Shown: piece after piece, positions 44,368 through 52,542 of the stretch
How positions within the stretch are numbered: position 1 is the first letter of the stretch
Layout: every line of letters begins with the position of its first letter
NCBI RefSeq assembly: GCF_020166435.1
Contig: NZ_JAINZP010000028.1
Coordinates: forward strand, 1 to 53,324
DNA length: 53,324 bases
Direction: 5' to 3'
From: Pectobacterium versatile
GTDB lineage: Bacteria; Pseudomonadota; Gammaproteobacteria; Enterobacterales; Enterobacteriaceae
The notes under the pieces: model-generated
Seen by the model: the letters and a program-made list of their open reading frames with translations, nothing else
Told to the model about the DNA's origin: nothing
The model's database searches: none
Made by a program: the position numbers and the translations under genes

Positions 44368-44411
44368 TCGGCAGCCTTAGGCCTGAATCAGAGATAATGA
44401 TGATTCATCTG

Positions 44412-44435
44412 AAATCCTACCTTGCTAGGATTTTA
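44412..44435 (+). terminator. Terminator after the secreted hypothetical gene
   Basis: AAATCCTA, a six-base loop, and TAGGATTT followed by TTA: eight perfect pairs and a short T-run, about 45 bases after the stop codon. Confidence 0.65.
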
Positions 44436-45564
44436 TGTATAGTTCGAAAATTATTTCGCAGGCTAAGTAAATATATTTATTTATTTTTTGTCTATCGATG
44501 TTACAGGGCGGGATTTCATTTTTGTTGATAAACCTGCCAAAGATAACCTTACTACAAAAACCTTCTGATCACCCTGCATATTATCGCTTACACGCTATGT
44601 TGTCTTTTTGCTTTCATGCTGTTCACCCAACTCGGCTCAATTGAACAGTACCATATATGCCGTGCTTTCCGAGTCTCTGTGTACCTTTGCCCTCTGCTCA
44701 TAGAGCGCTTATTCTAACGTAAAACGTACGAATCTCTATCGATAGAAAAATAATTATTAAATAATAAATAATTAGTTAAAGTATGAATTTAATAAGGCCA
44801 TTATTTGTAAGTGTTACTACGGGCGATAAATTTTATCGAATTGTAAATAAACCTTCTCTATAGGTCATTTTACTGATTGATAATATAAATCCCCAGTTAC
44901 TACAATGAGTTGTTCTTTTGTGATGGGGGATGTTTTTTATTTTATTGCCAATAATACTGTGTTCTACTAGACTCTGTTTTAATTAGATAAAAACACCCTA
45001 ATTAACTAATGTTATAACATCTTCTAAACCGATAGTGTTAGTAGACGCTATTTTTTAAATTAACTAACTCTAAAGAGTAAAATTAAAATATATAAACTCA
45101 ATTTAGTGATGGTTTTTTAAAATTAAAGTAGCCTGCCACGAAATAATTGCATGCGTAACAGTATTGGTTGATGCGATTTTTACGATTAACGTTATATTTT
45201 TATATAACTAATTAATTTATGGGAACGTAATAATTATAAAACCCTAAGAATGCCTATGCGTGAGAGAAATTAATTTTATGATGGGCTGTTTATGGGGGAA
45301 TCTATTATATAATATTATTATCTAAAAAAACCACATTAACTAGTTAATGGCTAATTAGATTGTTTGGTTATTTTTGTGTTTTTTTTTTAGTTATTGAATG
45401 TAAATCATCGGTTATTTTTCACATTTTACTTTGATTTTACTATCAAGATAGTAAAGGGATAGTTTTGAATGGAAAGATATTAATTCATTCACTGTAAGCA
45501 ATTTATAATTATCTGATTAGGATTTAAAAATAGAAATCAACCTGAAAATTTACGGAGATATTTT
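44436..45564. other. Long AT-rich gene-free region upstream of the oxidase cluster
   Basis: About 1.13 kb without a supported gene, with AT content far above the flanking core genes and many A/T runs, notably 44740-45540. It must contain the promoter of the lodA-like cluster, which ends with GGAG before the ATG at 45565. Such sequence is the usual target of H-NS silencing in enterobacteria. No repeats or insertion sequences are evident. Confidence 0.5.
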
Positions 45565-47955
45565 ATGAGTTCAAACAATTCCATACCTAAGAGAATACCA
45601 GCGCCAATAGTTAAAGAAGCAATTAATGGTGGTATTCTTCTTAAAGATAAACAAGTAACTGTCGTTGTTCCAGCATTTGCGAATCTTAAACACTATGATC
45701 TACTAACTATCAATTGGGTTGGCCTTACAGAGGGACAAAAGGGGAAAAGTTATCCCCTCCCCATAACTAAAAATTTGGCAGGAAAAGAATATGTGTACAC
45801 TATTCCTCTGGCTAAAATAAAAGATAAGCACGATCACTACATTAAAATATGGTATTCATTTCACCAAGTTGGATCTCATCAAACTTTCACTTCTCTCACA
45901 TTGGAATTACGCACTCTTGTCTACCCTGTCCCCGCAACTAAAGAGCTGAGCGTGGATACTTGCGATGCCGCAGAACCAGAAGAGTTGGATTTGGCTATTT
46001 CTGGCAATCGAACATTGGACGAGATCGCTTACGCCAAAATTCATCCAGGAATTGGTGTAGGGCGAGTGGGAAATAGTCAAAATGAATTTTATATTGGCCC
46101 TGAGTATGCAAACGAGCCACCGCCAGCGTTTGGCGCAACACGAGATAGCACTGGCGCAATTAAACGCCAAGCCGCTCGATTTAGAGTCTATGGTTACAAT
46201 AAGCAAGGTGTAGCAATTGCAGAGTTGACCCCAGATATTGCAGATATCAAGTGGGGCGTTGAACTCGCAAATAAGAAATCAGCCTGGTACCAATTTGATT
46301 TAGCGATGGACATACCTGAAGCAAGACCGGTTAAACGTCGCAACCCGCTAATCGCTGGGGCGCAGCGTAAAAGTCTTGAAATAAGACCTTCGGTTAAAAC
46401 CATTAGTGGCACGAACAGTGATGGTGTTCAATTTGATGACGGTAACTTTAAAGGTGTGCCGGTAAATCTTGGAGAACTACGCACTGACGCACAGGGGCGC
46501 TTATTGGTTCTGGGTGGACATGGTAAAGCAGCATCACCGAGTGGTGCACCTCTGTTGGTTATTAATGCTCAAGGAAAAGAGGAAAATTTTAATAATTCAG
46601 TTGACTGGTACGATGACATTTCGGATGGTCCCGTGTCGGCTCAAGTCAGCATAAAAGGAAAAAATATACCAGTAACCGATGCCTGGGTAATTATTGGGCC
46701 GCCAGATTACGCACCAGGCATTGTTCCATTTCGTTCGCTCTACGATATGATCAAAGCGACGTCAATTGAAGCTGGCCTGGTTTCACCTAGAAAAAAAACG
46801 TCCTATACCAAGGATATTTTGCCACTGTTGCTGAATCTTGCCAATCTGCAATGGGTCAATGTGGGTTTTGCACAAATATTTGGCCTTGAAGGTTCATTTG
46901 AGATCAATGCGGGGTTATTAACGTCATTACGTAAACCGGATTGTTATTTCAAACGTTTTGACGTTTACGCGAAATTTCGCTCGCCGGATGATGTAAGTTT
47001 TGACGGTGGGAATGAGTTGAAGTGGCCTCAATTGTATGGCGATGGACTTGATTCTATACCATTTAAAGATGTCGGAGGGTTGCTTCCTGTATCACCACAT
47101 AGCTATGAACATCTTGCCAATTTTGTATTGTCGGATTTTGTGGACGATCTCGTGTACGACGAGTCTTTAAGCCCAGGTGCTTTCCCCCATGCTGCCTATG
47201 CCCAACCCGTGGATAAACTGCCGGTCGCAGAACGACCAGCCACTCTGGATGAGGGCCCACTATCTTATTGCTGCGCAGATGCATTTCATCCAGGATGTGA
47301 ACTGACCTGGAATATGCGTCATGCTTCACTTTATAGCGAATTCATGCGTATTAAACGGCGTAGACCTCATGAGCAGGAAAAGGATTATGGTGATGTTCTG
47401 ACACCAGAACAAGCTCTGGCTGCTGATGGCCCTCTGCACGCTCAGGGTGCTGGTGATTTGACGCGCTGGATGGCAATGCCATGGCAAGGAGACACGGCTC
47501 GGTGCCGTTCAGGTTATGACAAAGAATTCCACCCTTACTTACCCTCTTTCTGGCCTGCCAAAGTGCCAAATGAAGTGCTTAGTGAAGAAACCTATAACTA
47601 CCTCTTAAATGACGCAGTAAGCGTAGAAGATCGAACCAATGCATTTAACCATCGTGACTACTGGCAGCGTGCATTTTTACTGGAAGGTTTGAGTAATGAA
47701 TCTGTAATGCAAGCCACCATCGACCGCTTCGATGAATTAGGTATCGTACAACGTCGGCCTATCCCACCTATATTCACATGGTGGTTTGATCACATGTTTG
47801 TTGAGCAACTCAAGCCAGGTATGCCGCCACTTCATGCCGCTGCTTCGGCTTTTAGCGCACGTGTTGATGGAGCTACTGTTGATCACAAAGCGGCGTTACT
47901 GAAACAAATGGGATGGACTGAAGAAGAATGGGAAAAATTCCGTCGCACACGATAA
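45565..47955 (+). CDS. LodA-like cysteine tryptophylquinone (CTQ) amino-acid oxidase
   Basis: A 796-residue LodA/GoxA-family oxidase. These enzymes oxidise an amino acid and release ammonia and H2O2, which can be antimicrobial. The core begins near residue 145 (TLDEIAYAKIHPGIGVGRVGNS) and contains LVLGGHGKAASPSGAP and WVIIGPPDYAPGIVPF. The likely quinone residues are Cys578 in HPGCELTW and Trp640 in MPWQGDTA; LodA uses Cys516 and Trp581, a similar distance. Residues 1-140 are an extra beta-rich domain absent from ordinary LodA. No signal peptide. The substrate (lysine, glycine or other) cannot be read from sequence. The next gene is the matching LodB-type maturase, overlapping by 28 bases. 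Confidence 0.88.
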   Translation: MSSNNSIPKRIPAPIVKEAINGGILLKDKQVTVVVPAFANLKHYDLLTINWVGLTEGQKGKSYPLPITKNLAGKEYVYTIPLAKIKDKHDHYIKIWYSFHQVGSHQTFTSLTLELRTLVYPVPATKELSVDTCDAAEPEELDLAISGNRTLDEIAYAKIHPGIGVGRVGNSQNEFYIGPEYANEPPPAFGATRDSTGAIKRQAARFRVYGYNKQGVAIAELTPDIADIKWGVELANKKSAWYQFDLAMDIPEARPVKRRNPLIAGAQRKSLEIRPSVKTISGTNSDGVQFDDGNFKGVPVNLGELRTDAQGRLLVLGGHGKAASPSGAPLLVINAQGKEENFNNSVDWYDDISDGPVSAQVSIKGKNIPVTDAWVIIGPPDYAPGIVPFRSLYDMIKATSIEAGLVSPRKKTSYTKDILPLLLNLANLQWVNVGFAQIFGLEGSFEINAGLLTSLRKPDCYFKRFDVYAKFRSPDDVSFDGGNELKWPQLYGDGLDSIPFKDVGGLLPVSPHSYEHLANFVLSDFVDDLVYDESLSPGAFPHAAYAQPVDKLPVAERPATLDEGPLSYCCADAFHPGCELTWNMRHASLYSEFMRIKRRRPHEQEKDYGDVLTPEQALAADGPLHAQGAGDLTRWMAMPWQGDTARCRSGYDKEFHPYLPSFWPAKVPNEVLSEETYNYLLNDAVSVEDRTNAFNHRDYWQRAFLLEGLSNESVMQATIDRFDELGIVQRRPIPPIFTWWFDHMFVEQLKPGMPPLHAAASAFSARVDGATVDHKAALLKQMGWTEEEWEKFRRTR

Positions 47956-49031
47956 TACCTGTAACATGTGATGTACTCGTTATAGGGGCGGGGCCAGCTG
48001 GCTCCGTTGCATCCCGTTTGTTGTCTCTTGCGGGAATTCGAGTTGTATTATTGGATAACGTCAATATTACTCGACAAAAAATAGGAGAAAGTTTGCCGGG
48101 TGCAGCCCGGCCTATGCTTCACCGTCTGGGGTTAATCCCCTGGGTTGAAAAAAGTGCGCCACTTACGAATAGCGGAAATTTATCCTGCTGGGGTGGAGAG
48201 CAGTTGACCGCGACAGATTTCATTCGCGATCCATATGGTTGTGGATGGCATCTTGATCGGCAGCGCTTCGACCAAAATCTTCGAGATGCGGCTGAAGACG
48301 CCGGCGCGTTGATAGTTAATGCGCGCCTATCCTCTCTCTCCGAAACTCATGATGGCATGAAAGCTCAGGTCGGCGAACAGACAATTACTGCAAATTGGGT
48401 CATTGATGCCAGTGGTAAATCAGGTACCATCGCAAGTACGTTAGGTAACTCAAGGCTGAAAGATCCACCTTTATTTGCACTGTATACATGGTGCAGTAAT
48501 GGCAATGTTGATACACGAAGCGTTGTTGAAGCGGCCCCAACAGGATGGTGGTATACCGCAGGATTACCTGATGGACACAGGGTTGTAGCCTTCTTCACGC
48601 TGCCGAGTGAGGCAAAAAACATGTGGCGTGAAAAGCAGAGTTTTACGTCTGTATTGCAGAGTACGACACATGTACAGCATTGGTGTCCTCCAGAACTGAC
48701 GTCCTCAAGTAGGTTGCAGATAATCGATGCAACAGCAAGCTATCTTCATAATGTTTTTGGCTCACGCTGGATAGCCGTTGGAGATGCAGCACTTTCATTG
48801 GATCCGTTGTCTTCTCAGGGAATATATAACGCAATTTATACTGGACTGCGTGGCGCAGAAGCTGTTCAAGCTGTCTTAGTTAATAATGATCGTTCTTTAC
48901 TTGTTCAATATGGTGACCGTATTGCGTCTATACGTGCTGCTTTTCGGGATGAAGTCAGTCGTTATTATCAGCAAGAAAAACGATGGGTAGAAAAACCCTT
49001 TTGGAAAGCGCATCAGAGTGAAAGGTTATAA
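47928..49031 (+). CDS. LodB-like FAD-dependent maturation protein
   Basis: A 367-residue flavoprotein of the tryptophan-halogenase/monooxygenase fold. FAD motifs: CDVLVIGAGPAGSVASRLL at the N-terminus and WIAVGDAALSLDPLSSQGI in the middle. In LodA systems LodB is required to build the CTQ cofactor by hydroxylating the tryptophan. The gene begins inside the end of the oxidase gene, so the two are translationally coupled, which supports a maturase role. It lacks the Lys and WxWxIP motifs of true halogenases as far as I can see. Confidence 0.82.
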   Translation: MGKIPSHTIIPVTCDVLVIGAGPAGSVASRLLSLAGIRVVLLDNVNITRQKIGESLPGAARPMLHRLGLIPWVEKSAPLTNSGNLSCWGGEQLTATDFIRDPYGCGWHLDRQRFDQNLRDAAEDAGALIVNARLSSLSETHDGMKAQVGEQTITANWVIDASGKSGTIASTLGNSRLKDPPLFALYTWCSNGNVDTRSVVEAAPTGWWYTAGLPDGHRVVAFFTLPSEAKNMWREKQSFTSVLQSTTHVQHWCPPELTSSSRLQIIDATASYLHNVFGSRWIAVGDAALSLDPLSSQGIYNAIYTGLRGAEAVQAVLVNNDRSLLVQYGDRIASIRAAFRDEVSRYYQQEKRWVEKPFWKAHQSERL

Positions 49032-49199
49032 TGATTTTTTGATAAATTAATTATGTTATCTATGCTGTGAATTTTCATGATAATAAAATAATGCATGATT
49101 TATTTATTCAGCAGATGGGTTGTTTTTATTGTTAATTTTACCTGGTTATTTATAAAAAATAATTTTCATAACTTTCATGATATATAATGAGGTGTAAGC
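49032..49199. other. Short AT-rich gap inside the oxidase cluster
   Basis: About 170 AT-rich bases between the lodB-like and catalase-like genes. No hairpin terminator is evident, so the three may be one transcript; a promoter of its own is also possible. Confidence 0.35.
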
Positions 49200-51107
49200 A
49201 TGAGTGAAAATCCTTCTGATGAATCTAAAAACGAAGCTTCACGTTCAGTTGAACTTCGGAATAGTTCAGCATCTGAGGAAATTCGTCGGATGTTTGTCGA
49301 TGAAACACAGGTTGGTCGTATTGTTAACCTAAAACAGACCCCAGCAAAGAGAGCTGCTTTCTCCAAACAGCATGGTGTTGCACACGGTATTTTTAGAGTG
49401 GAAAATGACCTTCAGGAAAGATATCGAGTAGGTATTTTTAAGCCTGGAGCTGAATATAAAGCTTGGGTACGTTATTCAAGTGATACGAATCAAAACAATC
49501 CAGATAAAAATACCACCATGGGCATTGGCATTAAGCTTTTTGGCGTGCCGGGTAAAAAAGCACTTGAAGAAGACGCCAATGCAACTACTCTTGACTTCAT
49601 TTTGCAAAACACGCAAGTGTTTTTTGCTGCCTATGCAGAGGAAATGGTTGATTTCAAAGCCGCAGCAATGAGTGGAGCCTTGATTGCATGGCTTGAAGCA
49701 AATCCTGAGGCAGCTAAAATTCTTGACGAAATGGAAAGCCGGACTGTTGAAAGTGTGTTGACAGAGCCACTATGGAGCTGTGTCCCGTTTAAATTTGGAG
49801 AAAATGATTTTTGTAAGTTCAAACTTGCCGTTCAATCAGTTGCAAACCCCAACAACCCTCCAGAATATGACGCACCTGACTATCTGGCGAGGGACATGCA
49901 AGAACGGCTGATGAACGGAGAAGCCAGGCTAAATTTTTATGTTCAATTGAGAACGAAAAATGCTACGCAATCTGTTAGCAGTGCTCGTAGTCTATGGAAA
50001 GAAAATGAGGCTATACCGATGAAGGTTGCGACTCTCACTTTCCCAAAACAAAATATTGTGGCCAGAGGACAGGCTGATTACGGAGAATCACTGTCTTTTA
50101 ATATCTGGCGAACATTGCCGGAAATGATCCCTCTAGGGAGTATTGCTGAAGCACGAAAAGTGATTTACCGTTCGTCTGCTCAGGTTCGAAGAAATGTCAA
50201 TGGCCAAGCAATTGGTGAACCCAACCAGCCACGACTTCAGGAAATGCCTGTTTATAGCTCTTTTCGCCCAACATTACAAACACCTTGGGCAGTGGGAACA
50301 ACAGGTAACATTGTTGAAAATTTTCAAGGGTATGCGGAGACGATTATTCCTGAATTCAGCTTTTCACATTTCGGGGAATTGACTATCAGTACTCGCGATA
50401 TGAGTCCTCAGACCGTGCAGGTGTTAAAAGCAGAAAATGACATCAATGGCGTCTTGAGTGGAATGATTGTTCAAGTTAACAATAACATTAAAAATGTGGG
50501 GATTTTGCGAATTTTATTAGAAAAAAATTCGGCTAAAAATATTAAATTTGGATTAGTTTCGAATTCTTTTTCAACAGAAGACAAAGGTCAGTTGACAATC
50601 AAGGCATTTGATAGCCCAGGTGCTAATGCGAAACTTGTTGCCGATCAGGTTATAATATCAGAAGAAAACGCCGTAGTATATATAGAAGCTAGGGGGGAAG
50701 AAACCATTTCGTTGCTGACATTCCATTACACAAACAAAATTAAAATTTTCCAAATGGATAATTTTGTTATTTCTTATCCAGAAGTTCCAATAGTTGATGC
50801 TAGTACGAACTTTGATGTCATAAATGGGGAGAATATCACTCAAAATGAAATCAGTGATCTTTTTAGATTTTATGATACCATTGTAATAAATATAATGAAT
50901 TCTAGCTGGGCTAGCGAAGTTCATGTGCCAAAAGCAATTAATTCCAATAAAAATAAGACATTAAAAATATGTAACATGGCAAATGATAATGTTGAGGTTT
51001 TCGTGGATTTGAAAGCAGGAAATCTTGGAGCTTCATCATTTATCTTGGCAAAAGATAAAGCAATTAATATTAAATCAACAGGAGCTGAGTGGAATATTAT
51101 ATCCTAA
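49200..51107 (+). CDS. Catalase-family protein with a long unknown C-terminal region
   Basis: A 635-residue protein. Residues about 55-335 match the bacterial catalase-related fold: KRAAFSKQHGVAHGIFRVENDL, FKPGAEYKAWVRYSS, MGIGIKLFGVPGKK, LDFILQNTQVFFAAY, and LGSIAEARKVIYRSS, where the Tyr may be the haem ligand. In related proteins the segment AHPKAHG carries the distal His; here it reads AFSKQHG, so that His seems replaced by Phe and ordinary catalase activity is doubtful. Residues about 390-635 are beta-rich with no recognised domain. No signal peptide. Start chosen for GAGG seven bases upstream. Placed after a peroxide-producing oxidase, it may bind haem or use the peroxide. Confidence 0.75.
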   Translation: MSENPSDESKNEASRSVELRNSSASEEIRRMFVDETQVGRIVNLKQTPAKRAAFSKQHGVAHGIFRVENDLQERYRVGIFKPGAEYKAWVRYSSDTNQNNPDKNTTMGIGIKLFGVPGKKALEEDANATTLDFILQNTQVFFAAYAEEMVDFKAAAMSGALIAWLEANPEAAKILDEMESRTVESVLTEPLWSCVPFKFGENDFCKFKLAVQSVANPNNPPEYDAPDYLARDMQERLMNGEARLNFYVQLRTKNATQSVSSARSLWKENEAIPMKVATLTFPKQNIVARGQADYGESLSFNIWRTLPEMIPLGSIAEARKVIYRSSAQVRRNVNGQAIGEPNQPRLQEMPVYSSFRPTLQTPWAVGTTGNIVENFQGYAETIIPEFSFSHFGELTISTRDMSPQTVQVLKAENDINGVLSGMIVQVNNNIKNVGILRILLEKNSAKNIKFGLVSNSFSTEDKGQLTIKAFDSPGANAKLVADQVIISEENAVVYIEARGEETISLLTFHYTNKIKIFQMDNFVISYPEVPIVDASTNFDVINGENITQNEISDLFRFYDTIVINIMNSSWASEVHVPKAINSNKNKTLKICNMANDNVEVFVDLKAGNLGASSFILAKDKAINIKSTGAEWNIIS

Positions 51108-51204
51108 ATCATTCGAGTTTCAGGGGAAAACGTTAACGTTTTGAACAACGCAAAGCGTTGGCCCTTTAGATTGAGGCTCATTATGGGCTTCGTAATTCGG
51201 CAAG

Positions 51205-51241
51205 GGCTGGTCAAATTCGGCGAGAACGAATTTGACCAGCC
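51205..51241. repeat. Perfect 15-bp inverted repeat
   Basis: GGCTGGTCAAATTCG (51205-51219), loop of seven, and the exact reverse complement (51227-51241). It lies about 100 bases after the catalase-like gene and is followed by AACTTACATGCA, not by a T-run. It is probably the transcript end of the oxidase cluster or a REP-like element. Confidence 0.75.
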
Positions 51242-51713
51242 AACTTACATGCAACTTGAAGTATGACGAAGTATATAAATGCTAATGTCAATGAAAGATT
51301 TCTACCAATTACACTCATCATAAATAGCATTAGGTATAAAACATAATGCATTAATTAAATGTTATAAAAATCAATTAATGAAAAATTTTTATAAAGACCG
51401 ATTTTAAATTTAATCAGATCTACATTTTTATGGGTTTGATATCTAACTTACCATTTCAACATTTATACCGAGGAAACGATACTCGCTCATACAGTGCGGC
51501 AGGACTGAATTAAAGATAATGATTATTTTCATTAATCTCTACTCTGCTATGGTTTTTCTATATAAATTCCATGAATTATTTTACAGGTAAATATATTTTT
51601 TTTTATTATTAAAAATAAAAGATTTTCACTTTTCCTTATTTTTTGTTAAAAATAACCCTGTCTTCATTTTTTATAAACACTGTTTTTGTTTTTCTGTGTC
51701 TACTAATGTTATA

Positions 51714-51735: not shown

Positions 51736-51750
51736 GCTAAAGGAGTGAAA

Positions 51751-52542
51751 ATGCTTTCAGGAAAGAAAACGATTATGGCGACATCCATATTTTGTGTCGC
51801 TTTTTTTGCGCATGCGGATAATTTCCCTAAATTGGATCAAGCGCTACCGTCAGGTATTAATGCGGTTGCGATTGCCCCCATCTTTGATTTCGATAGCGAT
51901 AGCTGTTTGCCCAGCGCGGGGTTTAGCCGCAGCGGAATACAAAACGGCGGTTTGAAACCGACAGGAAATCTCACCGCCGGATGCCGGTGGACTACATTCT
52001 TAGATATGTCGAATACGCTCCATCGTTATACCTGTATCGATCGTGATGGTGCTCGCTACTGCGGCAGCTTTTATTCGCTCTATTTCTTAAAAGATCAGGT
52101 GCTAGGTGGTTTGAAAACGGGTCATCGGCACGATTGGGAGCACGTTGCAATCTGGACGAAAAACGGCGTGGTGACGCACGGTAGCTTCAGCGCACACGGC
52201 AAACTGACGACGGAAGCGGCAGTGAATATCGATAAGCAGGGCGGTCACTTAAAATTTGTGTATCACAAAGATGGAGTGTTAACGCACGCTTTCCGGTTTG
52301 CCAAAACGAATGAACAGGCAGAAAACCCCTACGGCAACTTTGTGACGCCAGATATTGTCAGCTGGTACGCGATGTCAGGTGACGGTATCAGCAATGAAGA
52401 GTTGCGTAACCAGTTAAATGCGTTTGACTATGGTTCAGCCTCGATTCCCCTAAAAGACAGTAATTTCCTGACGAACCTGAATAATGGCCGACCTGCCGGC
52501 TATCCAGAATTTACAGCTGCCAGCTTAACGGCTTCGAAATAA
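51751..52542 (+). CDS. nip: Nip, necrosis- and ethylene-inducing protein (NLP family)
   Basis: A 263-residue NPP1/NLP toxin. Start at 51751 (MLSGKKTIMATSIFCVAFFAHA), six bases after AAGGAG; the upstream GTG lies inside that site. The signal peptide is cut before DNFPKLDQ. The diagnostic heptapeptide is GHRHDWE at residues 124-130, which holds the metal for membrane damage, and Cys pairs (CIDRDGARYC) are present. NLPs bind plant sphingolipids and kill dicot cells. In Pectobacterium Nip is secreted and matters for rot. It lies near the out cluster that probably exports it. Confidence 0.95.
   Translation: MLSGKKTIMATSIFCVAFFAHADNFPKLDQALPSGINAVAIAPIFDFDSDSCLPSAGFSRSGIQNGGLKPTGNLTAGCRWTTFLDMSNTLHRYTCIDRDGARYCGSFYSLYFLKDQVLGGLKTGHRHDWEHVAIWTKNGVVTHGSFSAHGKLTTEAAVNIDKQGGHLKFVYHKDGVLTHAFRFAKTNEQAENPYGNFVTPDIVSWYAMSGDGISNEELRNQLNAFDYGSASIPLKDSNFLTNLNNGRPAGYPEFTAASLTASK

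Follow-up and report, generated by a model that had tools for sequence, protein, structure and literature searches.

An inserted lodA-lodB-cat locus in Pectobacterium versatile encodes a predicted catalase-fold protein with phenylalanine at the place of the distal catalase histidine

The closest described relatives of the locus reported here are fusions of a catalase domain to LodA-like oxidases, which depend on the cofactor cysteine tryptophylquinone (CTQ). Such fusions were described in 2015, when 21 fusions with pfam00199 were listed, all of them in group III, with two Ralstonia solanacearum strains among their hosts (Campillo-Brocal et al., 2015, PMC4417212). In the parts of that paper on which we draw, many bacteria with lodA-like genes are plant-associated, and the job of the fused catalase-fold domain is left open. 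The pairing itself is therefore already known; an initial annotation of the present DNA had suggested that it might be undescribed in soft-rot bacteria. Here, we analysed a stretch of 53,324 nucleotides of Pectobacterium versatile (contig NZ_JAINZP010000028.1, positions 1 to 53,324; hereafter the window), in which three consecutive genes encode a LodA/GoxA-family CTQ oxidase, a LodB-type maturase and a catalase-fold protein (Cat):

45565..47955, + strand, lodA-like gene, CTQ-dependent oxidase
47928..49031, + strand, lodB-like gene, flavoprotein for maturation of CTQ
49200..51107, + strand, cat gene, catalase-fold haem-type protein

The best explanation of the locus as a whole, which we regard as just on the probable side, is an inserted operon in which an H2O2-making CTQ oxidase is accompanied by a fission-derived haem partner that consumes the peroxide. 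The most testable point of this explanation is a substitution in the predicted haem pocket of Cat, which points to use of the peroxide in situ.

49200..50234, + strand, catalase-fold domain of Cat (residues 1-345), a homologue of the N-terminal domain in catalase-LodA fusions
49359..49361, + strand, codon of Phe54, at the place of the catalase distal catalytic His (faces KatE H128)
49371..49373, + strand, codon of His58, conserved in every LodA-partner domain and perhaps a stand-in acid-base
50166..50168, + strand, codon of Tyr323, predicted to ligate haem on the proximal side (as KatE Tyr415), conserved in all 80 rows

Residues 30-345 of Cat are 45% identical to the fusion of Rhizobium leguminosarum (L003), and the catalase beta-barrel fold was recognized in the predicted model of Cat by structural alignment. 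Pfam PF00199 had no match to the window Cat itself at E 0.01, while 11 of the 34 aligned members did match. The nearest sequence family is the y4iL-like / MAP_2744c catalase-related group (cd08152), with an E-value of 6.9e-12 for the profile of 3e4w, which we take to be MAP_2744c. The y4iL-type gene in L007 is 34% identical to Cat; a search of PDB with the y4iL-type protein of NGR234 returned nothing useful.

We aligned catalase domains with Escherichia coli KatE as a control sequence, leaving repeat copies out (L001, L098, L116, L133, L134, L146-L149, L151 and L152). In this alignment the window residues Arg51, Phe54, Arg91, Asn137, Arg319, Tyr323 and Arg330 stand opposite KatE Arg125, His128, Arg165, Asn202, Arg411, Tyr415 and Arg422, respectively; the catalytic Asn of KatE is presumably the neighbour of Asn202, so the Asn137 column may be off by one. 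The structural alignments start at residue 47 of the model, against residue 68 of human catalase and residue 121 of HPII, so that residue 54 would meet human residue 75 and HPII residue 128 if no gap intervenes, since these alignments give end residues only.

Conservation was counted over 80 catalase-domain rows, from which we excluded further copies of loci already represented (L161-L167, L170) and matches spanning less than about 200 residues (such as L080, which shows Phe, and L144). The distal position is Phe in 58 of 58 LodA-partner domains (48 fused, 10 separate) and His in 22 of 22 other relatives. L006 was counted as fused with its catalase-like open reading frame (ORF) and LodA pieces in different frames, and L176 as a LodA partner located on another contig of a LodA-carrying genome. 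The His-bearing rows consist of 18 in whose loci no LodA appeared, judged on the DNA examined or, for some genomes, on the absence of a LodA match in a draw of 394 genomes, and four second copies located within LodA loci of Acinetobacter (three) and Streptosporangium (one). In the Acinetobacter loci L027 (12387-13334), L039 (13141-14034) and L042 (12652-13551), this separate distal-His gene lies downstream of lodB, besides a fused distal-Phe domain. Expressed as a motif, LodA-partner domains carry R-x-x-F, against R-x-x-H in all 22 sampled non-partners, the NGR234 gene included. By comparison, the Arg residues predicted to hold the haem propionates (Arg51, Arg91, Arg319 and Arg330) and Tyr323 are present in all 80 rows and Asn137 in 76.

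It is probable from these columns that Cat binds haem. Judged from its sequence, the haem site is kept and the catalase acid-base is lost; because the distal His is replaced by Phe, Cat is not an ordinary catalase, and this assignment was rejected. That Cat could nevertheless be a true catalase, guarding either the cell or the oxidase itself against H2O2 produced by LodA, appears unlikely. Such a role would agree with the catalase fold, with the retained distal Asn, proximal Tyr and haem Arg residues, and with the plausibility of local detoxification beside an H2O2 maker to which the domain is so often fused; a search of the window's genome for PF00199, the one catalase type looked for, also found nothing at E 0.001. 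It is opposed by the strict division of distal Phe and His between LodA partners and other relatives, and by the HPII variant H128N, altered at the same place, which is inactive according to the part of PMC9687031 used here. A peroxide-using partner would fit Cat better than a detoxifier. Thus, from the interpretation first offered for these genes, their linkage and the CTQ residues of the oxidase stand, whereas novelty of the link does not, and a function in containing peroxide has become doubtful.

The oxidase has LodA_N and LodA_C domains and the LodA fold, and its predicted active-site residues are as follows:

47491..47505, + strand, codons of residues 643-647, which include the catalytic Asp (Asp643) and the CTQ Cys (Cys647, LodA Cys516 equivalent), from alignments of 12 and 29 rows
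47662..47664, + strand, codon of Trp700, CTQ Trp (LodA Trp581 equivalent), invariant in alignments of 12 and 29 rows

Asp643, which we take to be the counterpart of LodA Asp512, is invariant in both alignments together with Cys647 and Trp700, in agreement with the CTQ oxidase proposed at the outset. Cys516 is named as the CTQ Cys of LodA in the part of PMC4417212 consulted. The window LodA scores below the curated NCBIfam equivalog cut-offs for both LodA (173.5 of 600 bits) and GoxA (335.2 of 750 bits), and since its identity to these enzymes is also only about 27%, their substrates cannot be transferred to it. Its core is 37-48% identical to the aligned fused LodA proteins, and in a LodA tree built without groups I and II it groups with loci of group III species (Streptomyces afghaniensis, S. 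purpureus, Cupriavidus UYPR2.512 and R. leguminosarum). The adjoining gene encodes a LodB/GoxB/QhpG-family flavoprotein, with profile matches to GoxB (E 6.6e-67), QhpG (E 2.2e-60) and LodB (E 2.6e-59), all under the equivalog cut-offs; among solved structures, the one nearest to it is 7ctq, a peptidyl tryptophan dihydroxylase (E 1.9e-20).

To place the pairing in a wider context, we examined the best 80 of at least 560 LodA relatives, a sample biased to window-like ones. The catalase-fold domain was fused to LodA in 44 of these loci and encoded by a separate nearby gene in four (L018, L019, L022 and L055), and a lodB-like gene was visible in 77. A tblastn search of Cat against plasmids likewise matched the N-terminus of genes annotated as LodA/GoxA family CTQ-dependent oxidase in R. 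leguminosarum and Azospirillum. Therefore, the proposal that the three genes belong together is borne out, and the situation that would have spoken against it, a third gene that never occurs with lodAB elsewhere, is not what the co-occurrence search returned. A catalase-fold partner is frequent near window-like LodA and is not general. It is highly improbable that the three genes came together by chance in one mobile block and have no joint function, a possibility already disfavoured by the same pair being fused in so many of the nearest loci and by the recurrence of the gene order in other enterobacterial genomes amid other neighbours. What can be said for chance is that the block is an insertion, that cat has a lower GC content (0.39) than lodAB (0.45-0.47), and that many LodA relatives lack such a partner.

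Several observations were made in passing on these loci. The LodA copies of two Sinorhizobium plasmids (L005, L006) look decayed, with pieces in several frames. Among LodA loci without a catalase domain no shared neighbour gene stood out, and many ORFs there are spurious. In Mycetohabitans endofungorum (L016, 1214-2764), an annotated Dyp-type peroxidase, another haem peroxidase near a CTQ oxidase, is encoded three genes upstream of the LodA gene. In the plasmid records L007, L180, L181 and L182, standalone His-bearing catalase-family genes lie beside or near genes annotated as peroxidase, and two of the four records also contain a patatin-like phospholipase gene; perhaps these genes form a lipid peroxide pathway.

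The split arrangement lodA-lodB-cat was found in six enterobacterial genomes. Five of them, namely the window, Providencia stuartii NCTC11800, Klebsiella sp. BIGb0407, G674 and the Lapin metagenome-assembled genome (where it extends over two contigs), have an extra domain on each of the two proteins. The sixth, CwR94, is a variant with three cat genes and a LodA without the Ig-like domain. The Cat ORF of P. stuartii, a species known from patients, ends early at 446 amino acids. In a tree of the 80 Cat rows, made by a quick method with support from the Shimodaira-Hasegawa-like approximate likelihood ratio test (SH-aLRT), nine separate enterobacterial genes form one clade (support 100), which sits in a set of 20 rows with 11 fused ones (96). 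A branch with support 96 separates all 58 LodA-partner rows from the rest; no branch sets apart the 18 standalone outgroup rows, as the four second copies fall among them. The LodA tree, where L020 is labelled as having no partner only since its contig ends, agrees in nesting the split form among fusions. Because both trees do so, and in view of the gene order, the split form likely arose by gene fission from a fusion. The ancestor of Cat would have been the N-terminal domain of the oxidase, and fission in an enterobacterial lineage would have moved this domain behind lodB.

The extra parts of the two proteins are listed below:

45592..45942, + strand, extra N-terminal Ig-like domain of LodA ('lodN'), about residues 10-126
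50235..50780, + strand, extra C-terminal beta-rich module of Cat ('catC'), about residues 346-527, placed by alignment
50781..51104, + strand, last ~108 residues of Cat, absent from five other full-length enterobacterial Cat rows aligned

lodN and catC stand at the former fusion junction, and the beta-rich character of catC is suggested by predicted strands. catC was found in three of 246 family genomes, all three of them LodA carriers. The last ~108 residues of Cat show 29-30% identity over about 60 residues to ORFs for small proteins of the same genus (G000:C23 and G010). When the two modules were searched against Pfam, the matches to catC were all weak and below the cut-offs; sequence searches of PDB with both modules also gave no more than weak matches. 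The C-terminus of the L177 protein, which by eye had seemed a relative of catC, showed no relation in a profile comparison.

The modules may hold the LodA-Cat pair together or target it. A more specific proposal, which is tentative and on balance improbable, is that LodA-partner domains form a distinct class of distal-Phe haem peroxygenases or peroxidases fed by the attached CTQ oxidase, and that in Enterobacteriaceae the covalent link was replaced by docking modules at the cut site, Ig-like on the oxidase and beta-rich on the haem protein. The idea of a docking pair is weakened because the profiles of catC and lodN do not resemble each other and because lodN-like domains also occur in other proteins (five weak matches among eight of 246 genomes, one of them, in the L177 protein, supported by profile comparison at E 5.8e-8). 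Also bearing on it is a 279-amino-acid protein of CwR94 (L019, 6478-7317), in which an Ig-like part and a catC-like part are together on one small separate protein. It is rather unlikely that the haem domain is mainly structural and does little chemistry, with the Ig-like and beta-rich modules placing the oxidase at the surface or in a complex. The loss of the catalytic His and the differences between lineages in the modules and the last 108 residues would be compatible with such a role; the five Arg and Tyr residues of the haem site kept in every row are unexpected for a mere holding domain.

Other genes near the split loci and their relatives were noted as well. A gene named usher-like by eye lies upstream of the LodA gene in Providencia (L018, 3535-6171) and in Acinetobacter L027, L030 and L039, accompanied in three of these four loci by a related chaperone-like gene. 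In CwR94, a GH19-family gene (L019, 12014-12697) is located between lodB and a cat gene, and a GH16-family gene (L019, 16522-17391) follows the last cat. Downstream of the Providencia operon (L018, 14619-17467) are a mucin-binding-module protein and an M60/enhancin-like peptidase.

With regard to the mechanism, we propose that LodB, by analogy with LodB and QhpG, probably builds CTQ in LodA from Cys647 and Trp700, and that LodA would then use O2 to deaminate an amino acid or a primary amine, releasing H2O2. Cat would be a haem protein of catalase fold with a proximal Tyr and would most likely consume this adjacent H2O2 in a slower, substrate-directed reaction of the peroxidase or peroxygenase type, in which His58 is perhaps the acid-base. 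A possible analogy is the coral allene oxide synthase-lipoxygenase, whose catalase-fold domain uses the product of the attached lipoxygenase. At the old junction, lodN and catC might keep the pair together or direct it to its place. A different coupling, in which the haem domain takes electrons from reduced CTQ or senses redox state or gas and the pair is not a source of H2O2, is decidedly unlikely. Quinohaemoprotein amine dehydrogenase (QHNDH) relies on both CTQ and haem c; the resemblance of LodB to QhpG of that system, the close coupling of a CTQ enzyme to a haem-type domain in the fusions and the lost catalytic His would suit a relay of this kind. On the other hand, a Tyr-ligated haem has a very low reduction potential and would be a poor acceptor, and LodA and GoxA, whose structures have been solved, are oxidases.

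Several points weigh against a peroxide-consuming partner of LodA. The replacement of His by Phe is a single change on the Cat tree, and the 58 rows are not 58 independent tests. His58, invariant in all 58 partner domains, likewise occurs in 15 of 22 relatives that keep the distal His, and its conservation therefore does not mark it as a replacement. Both trees are quick searches with long-branch warnings. No obvious signal peptide was seen by eye in LodA or Cat. According to the part of PMC5617202 used here, the catalase activity of coral allene oxide synthase domains whose catalase site is complete varies from nearly absent to considerable, and sequence therefore predicts activity poorly. 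Furthermore, 28 of the 80 nearest LodA loci have no catalase domain in the DNA examined, with four more too short to tell. Among 394 genomes of the order (the tallies appear to come from one draw), LodA matches occur in 14 and Cat matches in 12, with both in only three: that of the window, G344 (fused in one open frame of 984 amino acids) and G074 (where the Cat match is weak and lies on a different contig). Because of these two counts, the partner seems dispensable in many lineages.

The lodA and lodB reading frames share 28 bases, and the row of oxidase, maturase and catalase-family gene in AT-rich DNA reported by the initial annotation was confirmed by the sequence (GC 0.40 for the block). 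Features around the genes include:

49032..49199, + strand, lodB-cat gap of 168 nt, without a terminator-like site on this strand
51132..51241, + strand, candidate terminators 3' of cat (51132-51162, and a perfect 15-nt inverted repeat at 51205-51241)
44368..51552, no strand assigned, inserted block of ~7.2 kb, missing at the same place in relatives
44379..44434, + strand, left member of an imperfect direct repeat of 56 nt close to the block edge, 71% identical to 51501-51556
51501..51556, + strand, right copy of the 56-nt imperfect direct repeat

Since the lodB-cat gap is only 168 nt long and contains no terminator-like site on the + strand, the three genes would be cotranscribed and are a probable operon; a sigma-70 promoter scan of the locus gave a result not above chance. 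The cassette is an AT-rich insertion between conserved genes. All six same-genus regions fetched pass from the counterpart of 44367 to about 51550 without a lodA, lodB or cat match; one of the relatives, L112, keeps a 148-nt piece like 51097-51243, and the right edge thus differs among them. The distance from dbpA to the gene of a necrosis-inducing protein (NPP1) is 10.1 kb here and 2.3-3.5 kb in 20 same-genus relatives with both genes on one contig. The third-codon-position GC content of the three genes is 0.31-0.37, against 0.48-0.59 in three neighbours. A second repeat pair with nearly the same spacing is present at 44467-44487 and 51587-51607. No tRNA was found in or beside the block, and no integrase or transposase family was found among the neighbouring ORFs scanned, a scan outside which lay the short ORFs in 44368-45564.

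The oxidase was found in none of 24 other same-genus genomes searched, so that one of 25 carries the cassette, and in five of 392 family genomes, that of the window included, a sixth match being to the Ig-like domain only. Directly downstream of the block is the NPP1 gene (51745-52542), which has a match in 22 of 25 same-genus genomes, that of the window included; the copy of G021 is in pieces with a stop. Because the cassette is present in one of 25 genomes of the genus, between conserved genes and beside the gene for a necrosis-inducing protein, it may have a role in niche adaptation.

What is new in this analysis is the distal-Phe signature and the split variant. Searches of one open library brought up no mention of either, nor of LodA in the genus Pectobacterium. 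Roughly half of the 80 nearest LodA loci encode a fusion to a catalase-fold domain to which the 2015 paper assigned no settled job, and the distal Phe makes the sharply testable prediction that this domain is not a catalase. If a peroxide-fed haem enzyme is indeed present, the locus would encode a stand-alone oxidation system run on O2 and an amine. As the enterobacterial form consists of two separate proteins, reconstitution and docking should be easier to test with it than with the fusions.

Compared with the catalase-LodA fusions of group III, the window has the same two homologous domains and a lodB-like gene, which in the fusions lies downstream; here, however, the domains are separate genes in reversed order, with lodB between them and an extra module on each. 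Neither the split form nor the residue at the distal His place is mentioned in the part of the 2015 paper (PMC4417212) used here. With LodA lysine 6-oxidase and GoxA glycine oxidase and their partners LodB and GoxB, the locus shares the CTQ Cys and Trp, the catalytic Asp, the fold and an overlapping maturase gene, although the window LodA is only ~27% identical to them over the structural alignment. In the coral allene oxide synthase-lipoxygenase fusion (3dy5), the catalase-fold domain retains the distal His (as His67, according to the part of PMC5617202 drawn on), where the window Cat has Phe, and the partner of this domain is a lipoxygenase that makes a lipid hydroperoxide instead of a CTQ oxidase. 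The y4iL-like / MAP_2744c proteins (cd08152; 3e4w) are the closest sequence family of Cat, but the 22 sampled relatives that are not LodA partners keep R-x-x-H, whereas the partners of LodA have R-x-x-F.

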